Below are positions 53,680-62,030 of a DNA stretch of 63,103 nt, piece after piece. Numbering within the stretch: the first letter of the stretch is position 1; each line of letters starts with the position of its first letter. Under the pieces are notes generated by a model that was not told the origin of the DNA, searched no databases, and saw only the letters and a program-made list of their open reading frames with translations. A program made the translations under genes and the position numbers. Origin of the DNA: an uncultured Verrucomicrobiota bacterium (GTDB taxonomy: Bacteria; Verrucomicrobiota; Verrucomicrobiia; Limisphaerales; UBA9464). The DNA lies in NCBI GenBank assembly GCA_903907925.1, contig CAIVQB010000008.1, forward strand, positions 1-63,103, in the 5' to 3' direction.

Positions 53680-54720
53680 ATGCGCTCCCACCTCCTTCTG
53701 CTGATCGCATCGGCGACAGCGCTGCATGCCGGAACTGCCGATGGCCGGCTGGATCTGTATTGGATCGATTCGGAAGGGGGCGGCTCGACGTTGATCGTGA
53801 CTCCGGCCGGGGAGAGCGTGCTGGTGGATTCGGGGAATCCGGGTGGACGCGATTCGGGTCGGATCTTTGACGTGGCCACCCGGGTGGCGGGTTTGCACCG
53901 CATTGATCATTACATCACGACCCATTTTCACGTCGACCACTTCGGAGGGGCCGCAGAACTGGCCGCCCGCCTGCCCATCGTCAACGTGTGGGACAATGGA
54001 ATCCCCGACGCCGATCCCGATGGCAACAAGACCTCCACCTGGCCGCTGACCAGCAAGGCCTACCGCACCATGCCGGTCGTCGAGCGCCATGTGGTGCAAC
54101 CGGGTCTGCGCCTGCCGTTGAAAGCCGGCGACACCCCGTTGACCTTCCAGTGCATCATGGCCCGCCAGACGCCGTGGACGCCGAGTGGATCGTTCGGCGC
54201 GTGGGATCATGAGCCCGAGCCGAAGCCGGCTCCGGTGGACACTTCGGACAACGCCAACAGCTCGGCCTGGATCCTTTCGTTTGGGCCGTTTCGGTTCTAT
54301 GACGGCGGCGACGTCACCTGGAATTCCGAGGCAAAGCTGGCGTGGCCGGCGCCGCGGGTGCCGACGGTCGAGGTGTATCAGGTCACCCATCATGGTCTGG
54401 ACGTCAGCAATCATCCCCTGCTGATCAAAGCGTTGAATCCCGCGGTGAGCGTGATGAACAATGGTCCGACGAAGGGTACCGCCGGCGCGGTGGTGGCCAC
54501 GCTACGGGCCCAGTCGTCGATTCGCGCCCAGTATCAGCTTCACAAGAATGTCCGACCCGATGGCGCGACCAACAATGCGCCCGAGGAAGGCATCGCCAAC
54601 CTGGAGGCGCGATGCGAGGGGCGTTTCATTCATTGTCGCGTCGATCCGGACGGGAAGAACTACACCTTCGAGATTCCTGGCACCGGCCATGTGAAATCCT
54701 ATGTCACGCGGATGCCGTAA
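53680..54720 (+). CDS. Secreted metallo-beta-lactamase-fold protein
   Basis: The 346-residue precursor has a signal peptide (to about residue 18). The metal site is THFHVDHFGG (HxHxDH), with further ligands in YDGGDVTWNS and YQVTHHGLDVS. The beta-lactamase fold with the THHGLD motif resembles the ComEC-type C-terminal hydrolase domain. It is likely an extracytoplasmic hydrolase of unknown substrate. The next gene starts 20 bases before its stop. Confidence 0.85.
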   Translation: MRSHLLLLIASATALHAGTADGRLDLYWIDSEGGGSTLIVTPAGESVLVDSGNPGGRDSGRIFDVATRVAGLHRIDHYITTHFHVDHFGGAAELAARLPIVNVWDNGIPDADPDGNKTSTWPLTSKAYRTMPVVERHVVQPGLRLPLKAGDTPLTFQCIMARQTPWTPSGSFGAWDHEPEPKPAPVDTSDNANSSAWILSFGPFRFYDGGDVTWNSEAKLAWPAPRVPTVEVYQVTHHGLDVSNHPLLIKALNPAVSVMNNGPTKGTAGAVVATLRAQSSIRAQYQLHKNVRPDGATNNAPEEGIANLEARCEGRFIHCRVDPDGKNYTFEIPGTGHVKSYVTRMP

Positions 54721-57022
54721 TGCCGGTGTTGAACGGTGGGTGCAACGGGTGCTGACGGCCGCGGCGCTCGTCAGTCTGTCCGCATGGGCTTCTGCCGCCG
54801 CGACGCCGGAACCGGTTTCGTTTCGACGCGAAGTGATGGCCGTCCTCTCCAAGAACGGATGCGCGAGCGGGCCGTGTCATGGCAATCGCAACGGGAAGGG
54901 CGGGTTCAAGCTGTCGTTGCGCGGCGAAGATCCCGACGCTGACTACGCGGTGCTGGTGCAGGGATTGGCCGGGCGCCGATTGAATTTTGACGAGCCCGAC
55001 CAAAGCCTGCTGCTCCTGAAGCCCGCCACCGATGTGGCCCACGAGGGCGGCGCGCGGCTGGTGAAAGGCGGCCCGGACTACACCCTTCTGCGTCGCTGGA
55101 TCGCCGCCCGCGCTCCCGACGATGCGAAGAGCCCGCGGCTGGTTCGGATCGAAGCCACACCCCGCGAGCGGTTCCTCCTCGATCCGGAGGACCGGCAACA
55201 GCTTCATGTGGATGCCGTTTTCGCCGACGGGCGGCACCGCGATGTCACGGCGCTGGCGTCATATGAAGTGGCGCAGGTGGGGGTCGCAGAGCTGACTGGC
55301 AACGGCGGCGTGAAGCGCCGCAACACCGGCGAGACCACCGTGCTGGTCCGGTATCTGGATCAACAGGCCGGCGTGCGCCTGGCGTTTGTGGCGCGGAATC
55401 CCGCGTATCGGCCCGGCGCGTTTCCGGCACCGGCGAACGCGGTCGACACCGCGGTGTTCGCGAAACTGCGGCAGCTTCGGCTGAATCCCGCCGCTTTGTG
55501 CAGCGACCCGGTTTTTCTACGCCGCGCGTTTCTCGACCTGCTGGGGATACTCCCGACCGAGGCCGAGGCCCGCGCGTTCGTGGCGGATTCGGATCCGGCG
55601 AAGCGGTCGAAGTGGATTGATGTCCTGTTGGAACGACCGGAGTTCTCGGAATTCTGGGCGTTGAAATGGGCCGACCTGTTGCGACTCGATGAACGTACCC
55701 TCGATCGGAAGGGTGCCCGGTTGTTTTACGACTGGCTGAGGGAATCGATCGCCGCGCACAAACCGCTCGACCAATTCGCGCGGGAGTTGGTCACCGCCCG
55801 CGGCAGCACTTACGCGCAACCCGCCGCCAATTATTATCGCAACCTCCGGACGCCGGTGGAACGGGCCGAAGCGGCCGCGCAGGTCTGGCTGGGGACCCGC
55901 CTTCAGTGCGCCCAATGCCACAACCATCCCTATGAGCGCTGGACCCAGGACGATTACCACGACTGGACGGCGGTGTTTGAGCGGGTGGACTTCCAGGTGA
56001 TTGAGAATCGCCGGACCGACAGCAACGACAGCCACGAGTTCAAGGGCGAGCAGGTCGTGTTCGTGAAGAACTCGGGCGAGCATCAGAATCCGAGGTCGCA
56101 TCGGACCTCTGTACCGCGGTTTCTAGGTGCCGCCCAGCCGATCGGGCCGGGTCTGGCGGGCGGGATCTTGCCGGCCGCGCTTCCCGCCGGTCTTTCGTGG
56201 CCGACCAATGCGGTATCCGGCACCACCGAACTGGACGCCCTCGGACGCTGGCTGACCTCAACCAACCATCCGCTCTTCGCGCGGACCCAGGCGAACCGCG
56301 TCTGGTATCATTTGATGGGGCGCGGCCTTGTAGATCCGCTCGATGATTTTCGTTCCACCAATCCCGCCTCGCATCCCGTGCTGCTCGATGCCCTCGCGGC
56401 TGACCTGGTCGCTTCAGGCTTCGATCTGCGGCATCTCATCCGAACCGTGATGCGGTCGCGGACCTATCAACTGGATTCCACGCCGACGCCGGGTTCGGAA
56501 GCCGATGTCGCCAATTATTCCCACACGGTGGTGCGCCGGCTGACCGCGGAACAATTGCTCGATGCGCAAAGCCAGGTGACCGGTGTTCCACTGGCGTTCC
56601 CGGGATTCCCGGTGGGACTGCGCGCGGGACAAATGCCGCAGGTTGCCACCAGTCGCGGCGGCCGGAACGGTGAGTTGGACGGATTTCTCCGGGCTTTCGG
56701 AAAACCTCCCCGCCAAACCCCGAGCGAATGCGAACGGGCGGGTGAGCCGGCGATGAGCCAGGTCTTCGCGCTGATCAATGGCACCACGCTGCAACGATTT
56801 TTGGCCGCCCGGGACAATCGGCTGGATGCCTTGATCCGTGCGGATGGATCGCCGGCGGAACAGATAGACTCGTTGTACTGGACCGCGCTGACCCGTCCGC
56901 CATCGACGGACGAGCGCGAGCGGTTGACGGCGATGGTGACCGCGGCGGGCGCTCGTCGCGCCGCGCTCGAAGACGTGCTGTGGGGACTCTTGAATGCCAA
57001 GGAATTCGTCCTGCGCAAATGA
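54701..57022 (+). CDS. PVC cytochrome-type protein with DUF1549 and DUF1553 domains
   Basis: The 773-residue exported protein starts with a signal peptide and the PSCyt1-like segment KNGCASGPCHGNRNGKGGF, containing the atypical Cys pair before CH. It then has DUF1549 (about 230-430, with the CxxCH-like LQCAQCHNHPYERWTQDDYH) and DUF1553 at the end (QANRVWYHLMGRGLVDPLDD). These proteins always occur with a DUF1501 gene and are thought to act in polysaccharide or sulfated-polysaccharide metabolism. The exact chemistry is unknown. It overlaps the upstream gene by 20 bases. Confidence 0.9.
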   Translation: MSRGCRNAGVERWVQRVLTAAALVSLSAWASAAATPEPVSFRREVMAVLSKNGCASGPCHGNRNGKGGFKLSLRGEDPDADYAVLVQGLAGRRLNFDEPDQSLLLLKPATDVAHEGGARLVKGGPDYTLLRRWIAARAPDDAKSPRLVRIEATPRERFLLDPEDRQQLHVDAVFADGRHRDVTALASYEVAQVGVAELTGNGGVKRRNTGETTVLVRYLDQQAGVRLAFVARNPAYRPGAFPAPANAVDTAVFAKLRQLRLNPAALCSDPVFLRRAFLDLLGILPTEAEARAFVADSDPAKRSKWIDVLLERPEFSEFWALKWADLLRLDERTLDRKGARLFYDWLRESIAAHKPLDQFARELVTARGSTYAQPAANYYRNLRTPVERAEAAAQVWLGTRLQCAQCHNHPYERWTQDDYHDWTAVFERVDFQVIENRRTDSNDSHEFKGEQVVFVKNSGEHQNPRSHRTSVPRFLGAAQPIGPGLAGGILPAALPAGLSWPTNAVSGTTELDALGRWLTSTNHPLFARTQANRVWYHLMGRGLVDPLDDFRSTNPASHPVLLDALAADLVASGFDLRHLIRTVMRSRTYQLDSTPTPGSEADVANYSHTVVRRLTAEQLLDAQSQVTGVPLAFPGFPVGLRAGQMPQVATSRGGRNGELDGFLRAFGKPPRQTPSECERAGEPAMSQVFALINGTTLQRFLAARDNRLDALIRADGSPAEQIDSLYWTALTRPPSTDERERLTAMVTAAGARRAALEDVLWGLLNAKEFVLRK

Positions 57023-57070
57023 AGCCGAACCCCGTCACCACCGTCGGAACACCAAACCGGATGCCCTGAC

Positions 57071-58486
57071 ATGAATTCGCCCCACGCCTGCTCCGGTTTC
57101 TTTGCCGAACGCTATTCCCGCCGCCGCCTGTTGCAGGTGGGCGGCCTGGGGATGCTGGGTCTGACCCTGCCCAAATTCGTCCTCGGCGAAACCCGCGCGC
57201 CGGCTCCGGGCTCCATCGTTTCCCAGCCCAAGGCCCGCGCCAAGTCGGTCATTTTTCTCTATCAATTCGGCGGCCCGTCGCATCTCGACATGTTCGACAT
57301 GAAGCCCGACGCGCCGGAGAAGATCCGCAGTCCGCATCGGGCCATCCGTTCGAGCGCCGATGGCATCCAGGTGAGCGAACGCCTTCCCGACGTCGCGCGG
57401 ATCATGGACAAGGTCACCCTGGTTCGGTCGGTTCATCACACGATGAACAACCACAATTCCGCCAGTTACTACGCGTTGACCGGCCACGCGCCGCCGGTGG
57501 ACGACATCCGGCTACGGGATACACTGGATCTCGCACCGGCCTATGGTTCGGTGGTGGACGCCCTCGCGCCGGTGTCCGGGGAGCTTCCTTCGTTCGTCGC
57601 CTATCCGCATGTGTGCCGCGACGGAGCCATCACGCCGGGACAGCACGCGAGTTTTCTCGGACAGGAGCATGATCCGCTGCTGGTGTTGAAGGATCCCAAC
57701 GCGGCGGATTTCGCGCTGCCCGAATTGAGTCTGCCGGCCGGGATGAGCTTCGAGCGGCTGGCCGCCCGGCGGGAGATCCAAAAGATGATCGACCGACAAT
57801 CGCACCTGCTGGACCACGCGGCGGCCGCCCGGGGAATGGATGCCTACTACGAACGGGCGCTGGCCATGCTGCACAGCGACCGGTTGCGCAGCGCGTTCGA
57901 TCTGTCCAAGGAACCGGAGAAGGTTCGGGACCGGTTCGGCCGGACCACATATGGCCAGGGGTGCCTGCTGGCGCGGCGCCTGGTGGAGGCCGGGGTGAAG
58001 TTTGTCACCGTCTATTTTTCCGACAACATCGGCGGCCAGAGCACCGACGGCGGCGGATGGGACACCCACGGATTCAACAACACCCGGATGTATCCCATCG
58101 TGGAGAAATTTCACCTGCCCCTCACCAACGTCACGCTACCGGCGTTGCTGAACGATCTCGACGAGCGCGGTTTGCTCGATACTACGCTGGTGGTGTGGAT
58201 GGGGGAATTCGGTCGCACCCCGGAGATCAACAAGAACATCAGCCGCGACCACTGGCCGCATTGCTACACCGCGCTGCTGGCGGGGGGTGGCGTGAAGCGG
58301 GGATATGTCCATGGTGCCAGCGATCGCCGGGGCATGTATCCGGCCGACAAACCGGTCCGGCCCGACGATCTGGCGGCGACTGTCTTTCATCTGCTGGGCA
58401 TTTCTCCACGCACCGAAGTGTTGAACCACCAGCAGCGGCCCCTCCCAATTTCAGAGGGCGACGTCATCGAAGGGATCCTGGCGTAG
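57071..58486 (+). CDS. DUF1501 (sulfatase-like) protein with Tat signal
   Basis: The 471-residue protein has an N-terminal Tat motif, SRRRLLQVGGLGMLGLTLP. The mature part contains FLYQFGGPSHLDMFDMKPD, LVRSVHHTMNNHNSASYYA, TDGGGWDTHGFNN and LVVWMGEFGRTPEINKN, the standard landmarks of DUF1501 proteins, related to arylsulfatases/alkaline phosphatases. The catalytic Cys/Ser of true sulfatases is not evident, so the fold may be used differently. It follows the DUF1549/1553 gene after 48 bases, as expected for this pair. Confidence 0.92.
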   Translation: MNSPHACSGFFAERYSRRRLLQVGGLGMLGLTLPKFVLGETRAPAPGSIVSQPKARAKSVIFLYQFGGPSHLDMFDMKPDAPEKIRSPHRAIRSSADGIQVSERLPDVARIMDKVTLVRSVHHTMNNHNSASYYALTGHAPPVDDIRLRDTLDLAPAYGSVVDALAPVSGELPSFVAYPHVCRDGAITPGQHASFLGQEHDPLLVLKDPNAADFALPELSLPAGMSFERLAARREIQKMIDRQSHLLDHAAAARGMDAYYERALAMLHSDRLRSAFDLSKEPEKVRDRFGRTTYGQGCLLARRLVEAGVKFVTVYFSDNIGGQSTDGGGWDTHGFNNTRMYPIVEKFHLPLTNVTLPALLNDLDERGLLDTTLVVWMGEFGRTPEINKNISRDHWPHCYTALLAGGGVKRGYVHGASDRRGMYPADKPVRPDDLAATVFHLLGISPRTEVLNHQQRPLPISEGDVIEGILA

Positions 58487-58553
58487 CCGTCGGGCTGAAG
58501 ATCGGCCCATCGCGGGATTGTGGGGCGGGAGCTGACCGCCGACACTGCGCGGC

Positions 58554-59747
58554 ATGACACGTGACGTTCCGGGGTTGTTTCACGCCCGATTGGGCGAGGC
58601 ATTGAAGGCGGGCTCGCTGGTCCGTCTTGTCCTCGCCGGGCCGCGTCCCGGTGTCGCCGCCCGTCAGATGGTGATCCGACCAGTCGTTCTCAAGGCTGGA
58701 CCCTGTTTTTCCGTGGTGTGGCGCGAGGAACGTCGCGATGTGACCAAGAACCATTCCGGCGACGAGGTGGTCGAATTGTGCCGCGAACGCATCGGGCCTG
58801 AATACACCGGGGCGCATCTATACACCACGACGGCCACCTTCCAATTGGACTGTCGTGATCCCGCCCGGCCGCACTTAAGCACCGCCCCCGGGGTTGCCGC
58901 GGTCGCCCCTGAAGCCCTCCAGCACGACCGGGTGCGCCAGCGGTCGGTTTCTGCCAAGGCCCCATGGTTGCACCTGCTCGGTGTGACAAATGCCGATGGG
59001 CGGGTGGCCAAGGGTATGGAAGCCAAGTTTCGCCAAATCCACCGTTTTGTGGAATTGCTCGATCCGCTATTGCGCGAGGCGTCGTTTCCGATCGAAGGCG
59101 TCCGAACGCTGGTCGACATGGGCTGCGGCAAGGGCTACCTGACCTTCGCCGCGTGTGAACACGTACAGCGGGCCGGGGGTGCACCTTGGAAGGTTCGTGG
59201 CATTGAAGTGCGGGAGGAATTGGTCCGCTTGTGCGAGTCCGCGGTGACGACCACCGGGATCACAGGATTGGAATTCGTTCAGGGCGCGATTGAGGACACG
59301 GTTGTGGAACGGGCCGATGTCCTGGTGGCCTTGCATGCCTGCGATACCGCCACCGATGCGGCCCTGGCTCGGGGGATCCGACTGCGGTCGTCGCTGATCC
59401 TGGTGGCCCCCTGCTGCCAGAAGGAGGTGCGGCCCCAACTGGTTCCGTCGCCGGTTTTGGCGCGCCCGCTCCGTCATGGGATCTTCCGGGAACGCCACGC
59501 GGAGTTTGCGACCGACGCGATTCGCGCGGAATTGCTGGAGTGGGCGGGCTACGATACCCGGGTCTTTGAATTCATTTCCCCGGAGCACACCGGAAAAAAC
59601 CTGATGATCGCCGCCGTTCGCAGGGAAAGTGGGACCGGACTGGACCCGGCCGTCGCGGCGGAGGCGGTTCGGATGCTGGCCGCGTTTTATGGGATCCGGC
59701 ATCAGCGGCTGGCGGAGCTGATCGGATTTGACCTTGCCGCGCCATGA
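58554..59747 (+). CDS. Class I SAM-dependent methyltransferase (Methyltransf_32 family)
   Basis: The 397-residue cytosolic enzyme has a Rossmann-type SAM site RTLVDMGCGKGYLTFA and an acidic strand-end segment VRGIEVREELVRL. The family-specific VALHACDTATDAALARG and LVAPCCQKEV motifs (ALHACGxxTD and PCC) define Methyltransf_32. The first 140 residues form an extra N-terminal domain. Members are RNA- or protein-modifying enzymes of mostly unknown target. Its stop overlaps the start of the Rsm22-like gene (ATGA), so both are probably co-translated. Confidence 0.85.
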   Translation: MTRDVPGLFHARLGEALKAGSLVRLVLAGPRPGVAARQMVIRPVVLKAGPCFSVVWREERRDVTKNHSGDEVVELCRERIGPEYTGAHLYTTTATFQLDCRDPARPHLSTAPGVAAVAPEALQHDRVRQRSVSAKAPWLHLLGVTNADGRVAKGMEAKFRQIHRFVELLDPLLREASFPIEGVRTLVDMGCGKGYLTFAACEHVQRAGGAPWKVRGIEVREELVRLCESAVTTTGITGLEFVQGAIEDTVVERADVLVALHACDTATDAALARGIRLRSSLILVAPCCQKEVRPQLVPSPVLARPLRHGIFRERHAEFATDAIRAELLEWAGYDTRVFEFISPEHTGKNLMIAAVRRESGTGLDPAVAAEAVRMLAAFYGIRHQRLAELIGFDLAAP

Positions 59748-60796
59748 ATGTGGATCAACTCGACTGGAACGCCCTGGAGCGATTGAGGGGTGCCTTTCTT
59801 TCCGGAACCGCGGGGCGCGCGGTGTATTGGAAATCGATGACCGATCTGGCCAGCTACGACGCGTCCTTTGGGGAACGCATTGGATGGAAATGGGATGCCG
59901 TTCTGGCGGAGTTGCGGCGGAGGGGGTGGCAGCCTCCCGCGGGATCGGTCTACGATTTTGGCTGCGGCAGCGGGATTGCGGGACGCCGTATGATCCGTGA
60001 ATGGGGTGTGAAACATCTGCCGGTGCTGCGGGTGCAGGACCGGTCGTCGATCGCTGAGCAGTTTGCTCTGGAACGGGCGAAATCCGAATTCCCGGAGCTC
60101 GCCGTGGAACGTTTCACTGCCGACGAACCGCTGACGCCCCAATCTGGACCGGCGACGCTCGTCGTCAGTCACGTCATCAGCGAACTGGCACCTGCCGATC
60201 GCCAGCGATTGATGGAGTGGCTGCCACGGTTCGACGCCGTGATCTGGGTGGAGCCCGGGACCCATGCGGACAGCCACGCTCTGGTGGAGGTTCGGGAGGC
60301 CGTGCGAACCCAGATGCGGGTCGTGGCGCCGTGCACCCATGAAAAAACCTGTGGTTTGACCGCTCCGGAGAACGGGCGCCATTGGTGCCATTCGTTCGGA
60401 AAGCCTCCCGGCGGAGTGTTTGCGGATGGGGACTGGGTGCGGTTCGCACAGAGGATGGGAATAGACCTGCGGAGCCTTCCGTACAGCTTTCTGGTGCTGG
60501 ACCGTCGGGTGGGCGTCGCGTGCGGTGGGGACGAAGCGGGGGAAATGTCGCGGGTTTTGGGCCATCCCCGGGTGTACAAGGGTTACGCGAAGCTCTTCAA
60601 CTGCTGCGCCCGCGGCGTAGAAGAGATTACCTTGCAGCGGAGGACCGATCCCGGGTTGTTCAAGCGGTTGGATCGGGGAACTCATTGCGGTCTGTTTCGG
60701 TGGGTCTTGGACGGCGGCACCGTTCGGGAGGCTGCGGAAGTGGGTGGAAATCCGGAGGAAACCATCCTCGGGGAGGCGGAGGACCCGATTCCTTGA
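59744..60796 (+). CDS. Rsm22-family (METTL17-like) methyltransferase, ribosomal small subunit-associated
   Basis: The 350-residue protein has a SAM site VYDFGCGSGIAGRRM, the segment SHVISELAPADRQRLMEW and the Rsm22 hallmarks VIWVEPGTHADSHALVEVRE, VVAPCTHEKTCGL, HWCHSFGKPPGG and YSFLVLDRR. Cys residues in CTHEKTCGL, WCH and the FNCCARG segment are positioned like the iron-sulfur ligands of Rsm22/METTL17. The family methylates or assists assembly of small-subunit rRNA. It is coupled by ATGA to the upstream methyltransferase gene. The target is unknown. Confidence 0.82.
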   Translation: MNVDQLDWNALERLRGAFLSGTAGRAVYWKSMTDLASYDASFGERIGWKWDAVLAELRRRGWQPPAGSVYDFGCGSGIAGRRMIREWGVKHLPVLRVQDRSSIAEQFALERAKSEFPELAVERFTADEPLTPQSGPATLVVSHVISELAPADRQRLMEWLPRFDAVIWVEPGTHADSHALVEVREAVRTQMRVVAPCTHEKTCGLTAPENGRHWCHSFGKPPGGVFADGDWVRFAQRMGIDLRSLPYSFLVLDRRVGVACGGDEAGEMSRVLGHPRVYKGYAKLFNCCARGVEEITLQRRTDPGLFKRLDRGTHCGLFRWVLDGGTVREAAEVGGNPEETILGEAEDPIP

Positions 60797-60869
60797 AAAA
60801 AGCTATTGACGCGACTCCCTGTCTGCGGACAAGCTCCACCCACACACGGAATAACTCTAAACCATAACA

Positions 60870-61487
60870 ATGAAGACAAAATCTCTTCTGCTTCTCGCTG
60901 TTGCGGCTTCGATCGGAGCCACCTCGGCGTTCGGGGCTGTCAGTTCCAATATCGTTGGCTACACGAAGTTGACCTTGAAAAAGGGTTTCAACCTCGTTGG
61001 CAACACGCTCGACAACAAGGCCGGTAACATGGCCACTGTTGTTCTCGCTGATACCCCGGACAACACCGCGGTGTTTAGCTGGAATGGCAAGGGTTTCAAT
61101 GAGCTCGACAACCTCGGTGGCGGTCTCTGGATCGGCACGGATTTCGCGCTGACCCCCGGAATCTCCCTGTTTGTTCAAGTTCCTGCCGATGCCTCCATCA
61201 CCCTCGTTGGTGAAGTGCTCACCGGCCAGCAGGACATCACCCTGTCCAAGGGTAACAACTTTGTCGCCTCCAAGATTCCCCAGGCTGGCAAGATTGATTC
61301 CGACCTCGGCTACTCCCCGGCTGACAATGACGCCGTGTTCCAGTGGAGCGGAAAGTCCTATGTTGAATCCGACTTCCTCCTCGGTGTGGGTTTCATTCCC
61401 AGCTCGCCGAGCCTCGCGGTCGGTGAAGGCGTTGTGATCCAGACTGCTGCTGCCGGTAAGTGGTCCCGGAATTTCACTGTGAACTGA
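60870..61487 (+). CDS. Secreted PVC-type protein with SSNIVGY motif
   Basis: The 205-residue precursor has a signal peptide (SLLLLAVAASIGATSAFG) followed by AVSSNIVGYTKLTLKKGFNL. This last motif opens a family of secreted Verrucomicrobia/Planctomycete proteins of unknown function. The mature region has two similar-sounding beta-rich halves (GFNLVGNTLDN; NNFVASKIPQ) suggesting an internal duplication. Codon choice (many GTT, CTC, AAG) resembles highly expressed genes. The PEP-CTERM gene lies 36 bases downstream. Confidence 0.75.
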   Translation: MKTKSLLLLAVAASIGATSAFGAVSSNIVGYTKLTLKKGFNLVGNTLDNKAGNMATVVLADTPDNTAVFSWNGKGFNELDNLGGGLWIGTDFALTPGISLFVQVPADASITLVGEVLTGQQDITLSKGNNFVASKIPQAGKIDSDLGYSPADNDAVFQWSGKSYVESDFLLGVGFIPSSPSLAVGEGVVIQTAAAGKWSRNFTVN

Positions 61488-61523
61488 ACAGTTTAATTGA
61501 TCCAAGCAATCGAACCTAGAACT

Positions 61524-62030
61524 ATGAAAAAGTACCTCCTCACACTGGGTGCCACTGCGTTGACCGTCACTGGTTTCGCTCAGGGCACTTTCAGCGGAAA
61601 AAACACCTCGGGCGGATTCATCCTCGCTGAAAACGGCGTGAGTCTCCTGTCGAAGACTGTTGGCAAAGTCGAGCTGCTCGACGGAAACACTGTTCTCGCC
61701 TCCGGCAACATCATCTTGGACGGAAAGTTCGCCCTCGGCGTCGTGACTGATCCTGCCAGCACTGGCACGGTCAGCATCACGGTCCGCGCTTGGGACTCCT
61801 CCTTGGGTTCCACGTTCGCCGCTGCCCAGGCCACTGGTCACGGTTACGGATCCGCTGTTGTGAGCGTTGCGCTGGCCACCGGCACGACTCCTCCCTCGGA
61901 TTTGACTGCCTCCGGCTTCACCGGCTTCTCGCTGACCAAGGCCGCTGTCACCAATATCCCTGAACCCACCACCGTTGCTCTCGCCGCTCTCGGCCTCGGT
62001 GGCTTGATGTTCATCAGCCGCCGCAAGTAA
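61524..62030 (+). CDS. PEP-CTERM protein
   Basis: The 168-residue secreted protein has a signal peptide (KKYLLTLGATALTVTGFA), a mature domain rich in Gly/Thr/Ser, and a C-terminal PEP-CTERM sorting tail. The tail has the motif PEPTT, then the hydrophobic helix VALAALGLGGLMFI and basic SRRK. Exosortase would cleave it at the envelope, often linked to exopolysaccharide production. No exosortase gene is in the window. A terminator follows. Confidence 0.9.
   Translation: MKKYLLTLGATALTVTGFAQGTFSGKNTSGGFILAENGVSLLSKTVGKVELLDGNTVLASGNIILDGKFALGVVTDPASTGTVSITVRAWDSSLGSTFAAAQATGHGYGSAVVSVALATGTTPPSDLTASGFTGFSLTKAAVTNIPEPTTVALAALGLGGLMFISRRK

Follow-up and report, generated by a model that had tools for sequence, protein, structure and literature searches.

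The window, by which we mean the whole stretch of 63,103 nucleotides analysed here, belongs to a genome of 4.6 Mb in 148 contigs that gave a single match to Rsm22 and a single match to Methyltransf_32. These two matches are neighbouring genes, with the following features:

58554..59747, plus strand: MT32, a class I SAM-dependent methyltransferase of the Methyltransf_32 family (PF13679), 397 aa, with the ATG at 58554 and the stop codon TGA at 59745-59747
59744..60796, plus strand: Rsm22/METTL17-like protein (PF09243), 350 aa, a Rossmann and a C-terminal beta domain, with the ATG at 59744 and the stop codon at 60794-60796
59744..59747, plus strand: ATGA, read from the sequence, in which the start codon of the Rsm22-like gene lies over the MT32 stop codon
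59954..59974, plus strand: SAM-binding motif I of the Rsm22-like protein, D71-x-G73-x-G75-x-G77, assigned by conservation in 127 rows
60329..60352, plus strand: P196-C197-T-H199 ... C203, candidate ligand positions 1 and 2 with second-shell Pro and His, assigned by alignment and conservation
60386..60391, plus strand: C215-H216, candidate ligand position 3, assigned by alignment and conservation
60602..60604, plus strand: C287, candidate ligand position 4 in the C-terminal domain, assigned by alignment and conservation, the domain being matched structurally

Both reading frames and the overlap of stop and start codon were found where the sequence-only reading had placed them, and its family assignments agreed with Pfam, MT32 scoring 108.7 bits against PF13679 (cut-off 27) and the Rsm22-like protein 57.8 bits against PF09243 (cut-off 23). 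In our reading of the sequence, no good Shine-Dalgarno sequence stands directly 5' of the Rsm22-like ATG, and a start with such a weak signal would for this reason fit translational reinitiation. Promoter and terminator scans of positions 58400-60950 gave no signal above that of shuffled sequences. The pair is preceded in the window by a DUF1549/DUF1553 gene and a DUF1501 gene (54701-58486), and followed by two small proteins that we read as secreted-type (60870-62030), the second carrying at its end a tail that we take to be PEP-CTERM-like. The same two kinds of small protein also follow the pair at the related loci L069, L070, L074, L076 and L143, and the second of them is multicopy in L074 and L076.

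Searches with the single sequence of the Rsm22-like protein matched no solved relative of METTL17. A profile of 42 bacterial sequences, taken from 59 Rsm22-like frames after removal of repeated copies of a gene and of some close relatives, matched human METTL17 (8csp) at 9.4e-27, trypanosome mt-SAF1 at 8.4e-16 and yeast Rsm22 at 4.4e-12, and ranked METTL17/Rsm22 structures above other methyltransferases. The predicted model of the window protein (pLDDT 89.9) had METTL17 as its best match in Foldseek, and VIA-align 2 aligned it with 8csu and 8csp at a Z of 24.7 over 298 residues (model residues 1-322, rmsd 3.9-4.0); eleven METTL17/Rsm22 entries were among the matches listed, at Z 20.9-24.7, followed by the next protein at Z 13.8. 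Since the alignment spans model residues 1-322, the structural match includes the C-terminal domain, which PMC11046306 calls a unique fold in Rsm22/METTL17. The Rsm22-like protein is a true member of the Rsm22/METTL17 family with the two-domain fold, and shares this fold and PF09243 with human METTL17, yeast Rsm22 and Trypanosoma mt-SAF1, which are mitochondrial small-subunit assembly factors. It differs from METTL17/Rsm22 in being bacterial, shorter and encoded next to MT32 (with RimO close by in some relatives).

Cysteines placed like iron-sulfur ligands had been pointed out in the Rsm22-like protein from the sequence alone. According to PMC11046306, the [4Fe-4S] ligands of human METTL17 are C333, C339, C347 and C404, equivalent to C373, C379, C400 and C513 of yeast Rsm22, in which Pro372 and His375 also lie near the cluster. 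In the profile alignments, P196, C197, H199 and C203 of the window protein align with the Pro, the first two Cys and the His of METTL17/Rsm22, and the regions of human C347 and C404 align on C215 and C287 (yeast C400 falls outside the aligned stretches), so that all four cysteines occupy METTL17 ligand positions, and the four positions as well as the neighbouring Pro and His are common to both. Conservation was scored in 127 Rsm22 rows, comprising the window and others at 18-62% identity to its protein, from which 11 loci repeating the gene of another locus and L001, which equals the window, had been dropped. C197, C203, C215 and P196 are kept in 127/127 rows, and H199 and C287 in 126/127 each, the row without C287 being L042, where the gene is cut by the contig end; relatives thus do not lose the cysteines, and the earlier claim stands. 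The four cysteines are not new in bacterial members, because an alignment of six METTL17 orthologues 'spanning bacteria, fungi, and humans', described in PMC11046306, already took in bacteria and noted four conserved cysteines. The gene pair appears to be unreported: among the open-licence literature matches listed, judged by title, none deals with a bacterial Rsm22 or with MT32 and Rsm22 as a pair.

Two alternative readings bear on these residues and on the SAM site. That the cysteines hold zinc or are purely structural, with no iron-sulfur cluster, is very improbable. Zinc was first modelled at the equivalent site of the trypanosome structure (as reported in PMC11046306), but this density was later re-read (according to PMC9892005), and iron analysis and spectroscopy of human METTL17 together with cryo-EM of yeast Rsm22 place Fe4S4 at the equivalent cysteines (PMC11046306); the second-shell Pro and His, moreover, are kept in the bacterial rows as well. 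The putative SAM site is preserved too: D71, G73 and G75 are found in 127/127 bacterial rows and G77 in 125/127, and position 99 is acidic in all 127 (D in 125, E in 2). As the motif is intact here, unlike that of yeast Rsm22, which PMC11046306 describes as broken and free of SAM density, SAM binding is favoured for the bacterial form, and the residues suggest that this form is still able to bind SAM; this agrees with the proposal, made from Dictyostelium in that source, that the cluster and the SAM motif together represent the older state. Less probable, yet of some weight, is that the Rsm22-like protein acts as a structural assembly factor only and lacks methyltransferase activity, as has been argued for yeast Rsm22. 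The yeast precedent speaks for this, as does the conservation of the ligand cysteines, which is at least as high as that of the SAM motif; near-invariance of the motif and of the acidic residue would be odd had SAM binding been lost. A purely structural role is compatible with the explanation that we prefer, in which methylation is optional, and the two likelihoods overlap rather than exclude one another.

MT32 consists of an N-terminal domain (about residues 1-115) and a Rossmann domain (about 130-360), with motif I reading DMGCGKGY and the motif after strand 4 reading APCCQKE. The PCC motif, which the sequence-only reading had named for this methyltransferase, is kept in 67/67 aligned MT32 rows. 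A second, degenerate MT32 copy with PCA in place of PCC lies between the intact MT32 and Rsm22 at L044:3817-5025 (genome G088) and is outside these 67 rows; in a separate MT32 alignment of 26/30 frames, it is this copy and not the main one that represents L044. The predicted model shows an ordinary class I methyltransferase fold with the extra N-terminal domain. The 50 matches listed in the fold search, all at Z 13.0-14.4, are ordinary class I methyltransferases that include rRNA and tRNA enzymes, and the first match in Foldseek was RumA with a TM-score of 0.34; neither search of the model names a substrate. Among the open-licence literature matches listed, which covered METTL25 and RRNAD1 as well, no function or substrate was found for the PCC-motif Methyltransf_32 family. 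Homologues of MT32 at 26-38% identity occur on 13 plasmid-collection records from Acinetobacter, Lysinibacillus, Stenotrophomonas, Fusobacterium and others, where these PF13679 members carry the annotation SAM-dependent methyltransferase; single-sequence tblastn gave no Rsm22 match in the 13 records, several of which are not whole genomes.

Occurrence of the two genes was assessed in a phylum sample of 288 genomes. Rsm22 was found in 67/288 and a strong match to MT32 in 76/288; at E up to 1e-6 the latter count is 80, and four genomes with weak Methyltransf_32 matches (E 3.5e-7 to 7.8e-7) were excluded. Both genes are present in 34 genomes against 17.7 expected (Fisher p 1e-6, with kinship ignored and 28/34 falling in families f5 and f24), and each also occurs by itself, MT32 without Rsm22 in 42/76 carriers and Rsm22 without MT32 in 33/67. 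In 16 of the 34 genomes, namely the window's and 15 genomes of family f5, MT32 precedes Rsm22 on the same strand within 1 kb; in G088, one of these 16, it is the degenerate MT32 copy that lies so close, and the distance to the intact copy is 2.2 kb. The two genes are 3.8 kb apart in one further f5 genome, and within family f5 MT32 is present in 21/22 Rsm22 carriers.

A scan of named genomes returned 454 related stretches, of which the best 80 were analysed as loci. In 52 of the best 80 of 454, which is more than chance, MT32 precedes Rsm22 in the same orientation (3 of the 52 have over-long frames, and their positions were assigned separately from the script label); the gap between the genes is below 500 bases in 40 of these 80, and the 4-base overlap of the window recurs identically in 14 of the 52. 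The remaining 28 of the best 80 have no MT32 in the fetched flank, which is short upstream in some (81 bases in L100, 786 in L136), and for 23 of the 28 an MT32 was found elsewhere in the genome; with 52 adjacent and 23 elsewhere, 75 of the best 80 of 454 carry both genes. No fusion of MT32 and Rsm22 was seen among the frames of 97 loci. In a rapidly built tree with 104 Rsm22 proteins, from which L048 and L049 were left out as repeats of L128 and L146, adjacency of the genes needs at least 16 changes as compared to 33 with shuffled labels, and is spread over an Opitutales-like branch and other branches; L069 and L070, in each of which MT32 adjoins Rsm22, group with the window at a support of 99. 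Details of the tree are unsure because of long branches and open forks, and the simplest reading of these sequences would be an old pair that was broken several times. The pairing is conserved beyond the window, and the earlier claim is not refuted on this point.

The records of the best 80 of 454 loci are titled Verrucomicrobiota or groups within it, except for L078 and L086 (Proteobacteria), L089 (Klebsiella) and L121 ('PVC group'), and the Rsm22 genes of these four are interspersed with the rest in the tree. L077, L078, L080, L086, L089 and L124 bear the titles Akkermansia muciniphila, Proteobacteria or Klebsiella pneumoniae, and in the tree their Rsm22 genes branch with those from other Verrucomicrobia; these six metagenome bins are probably mistitled.

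Across loci the pair is constant while the flanking genes change. The DUF1549/DUF1553 and DUF1501 genes precede it in the window; at other loci this place is taken by an NMT1-type transport gene, or by a MacB-type gene together with a TPR protein. On the downstream side the window has a small secreted-type protein, and other loci have RimO, an ABC ATPase or a D-Ala-D-Ala carboxypeptidase (flank families were assigned by scanning one member of each kind). RimO, an iron-sulfur enzyme, is the methylthiotransferase of the small-subunit ribosomal protein S12. It follows downstream on the same strand in 21/97 loci, corresponding to 20 distinct loci of 95, at 188-425 bases from Rsm22 in 14/20 and at 0.7-2.2 kb in 6/20, and all of the 3/3 RimO neighbours tested exceed the RimO equivalog cut-off. 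Three examples of the 20, each on the same strand as Rsm22, are:

L144:5206-6618, same strand as Rsm22: RimO
L041:801-2213, same strand as Rsm22: RimO
L139:5752-7164, same strand as Rsm22: RimO

The association is confined to the Opitutales-like branch, and no RimO adjoins the pair in the window. RimO is not homologous to either gene of the pair and, like the proposed Rsm22 role, concerns the small subunit; as S12 belongs to the small subunit, this neighbourhood supports a small-subunit role, within the Opitutales-like branch. A LarC-type nickel insertion gene is found downstream on the opposite strand at 11 loci (L071, L073, L075, L077-L080, L082, L086, L089 and L092), in a branch that has Rsm22 without an adjacent MT32; the family was checked in L092 only. 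Among 20 regions around distant Rsm22 genes, 16 of them with a recognised Rsm22, a pseudouridine synthase occurs in 3 (checked against Pfam in 2) and RNase Y in 2 (one of them checked), as in L179:4140-4868, L191:2817-3545 and L174:3325-4875 from other families; these recurrences are too few to lean on.

For MT32 away from Rsm22, no neighbouring family recurs in more than 2/20 regions (MT32 being recognised by script in 18), and three pairs of regions share neighbours. One of these pairs, L165 and L169, has in common an ATPase gene of the ABC type, which we presume to be ABC-F, near the lone MT32 and in L165 directly downstream of it.

The explanation that we consider rather likely as a whole is that of an iron-sulfur Rsm22-like 30S assembly factor, possibly a methyltransferase, with MT32 as a partner in the same pathway. 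A [4Fe-4S] cluster of the Rsm22-like protein would tie its methyltransferase domain to its C-terminal domain. By analogy to METTL17, the protein would most likely dock on the immature 30S subunit at its head, there holding the 16S rRNA close to the decoding centre until assembly is further along, and it may methylate nearby rRNA. For the mitochondrial protein, PMC9892005 describes that h31 is held back by METTL17/Rsm22, which also obstructs the mRNA channel and keeps out METTL15, a factor that acts later; yeast Rsm22 is also treated in PMC12375894. MT32 would be co-expressed with the Rsm22-like protein via the overlapping stop and start codons, and would serve that pathway too, its most likely target being rRNA or a ribosomal protein.

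The joint rRNA or ribosome task that the sequence-only reading had proposed for the pair holds in part. For the Rsm22-like protein such a task is plausible, being well founded on homology to the mitochondrial factors, to which RimO in 20 loci adds; it does not extend with the same weight to MT32 acting on rRNA or the ribosome, or to the two working jointly, and a joint task is not obligatory given the 42/76 and 33/67 genomes with one gene only. It is thus conceivable, though in our estimate rather unlikely, that only the Rsm22-like protein is an assembly factor and that MT32 is independent of it, modifying for example tRNA, another protein or a small molecule, the shared transcript being due to a gene order inherited in one lineage. 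Besides the separate occurrences in the phylum sample, the records of Acinetobacter, Lysinibacillus, Stenotrophomonas and others that carry a homologue but gave no Rsm22 match would agree with an independent MT32, as would the variable surroundings of lone MT32 genes. Such independence is harder to reconcile with a pair that persists while both its upstream and downstream genes change, with the 4-base overlap recurring among the best 80 of 454 loci and with the near-constant presence of MT32 in Rsm22 carriers of family f5.

This pair bears on the question of an enzymatic origin of METTL17/Rsm22 and of its former methylation target. A bacterial member with both the cluster ligands and the SAM site intact, encoded in a conserved two-gene unit, would be a simple system in which cluster, methylation and assembly are separable, and the pair would offer a first functional lead for the PCC-motif Methyltransf_32 family, which is found in many bacteria. 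A further-reaching idea, which we regard as speculative and unlikely, is that the iron-sulfur checkpoint of METTL17 is older than mitochondria, and that a bacterial Fe4S4 Rsm22, acting as an rRNA methyltransferase, together with MT32 (and RimO in some lineages) ties the maturation of 30S subunits to the supply of iron-sulfur and SAM.

As METTL17 sits at helix 31, we also examined whether Rsm22 replaces one of the 16S methyltransferases RsmB and RsmD. Replacement of RsmB is ruled out in the window's genome, where RsmB scores 306.7 bits (cut-off 269). Across the phylum sample, an RsmB-type match is present in 262/288 genomes (62 over the cut-off; related methyltransferases match too) and in 56/67 Rsm22 carriers. 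Rsm22 occurs in 11/26 genomes without an RsmB match as compared to 56/262 with one (Fisher p 0.026, kinship ignored), counts that speak partly against rejecting the replacement in general, and RsmB may have been replaced by Rsm22 in families f4, f24 and f31, to which the 11 carriers without an RsmB match belong (G054, G072, G152, G044, G219, G068, G090, G095, G225, G233 and G264). RsmD-type matches were found in 40/40 chosen genomes (22 Rsm22 carriers and 18 non-carriers), exceeding the cut-off in 5/22 carriers versus 11/18 non-carriers, a difference that kinship may explain; in the window's genome the RsmD match reaches 109.3, under the cut-off of 117.5, and an exchange between Rsm22 and RsmD may have taken place in some families.
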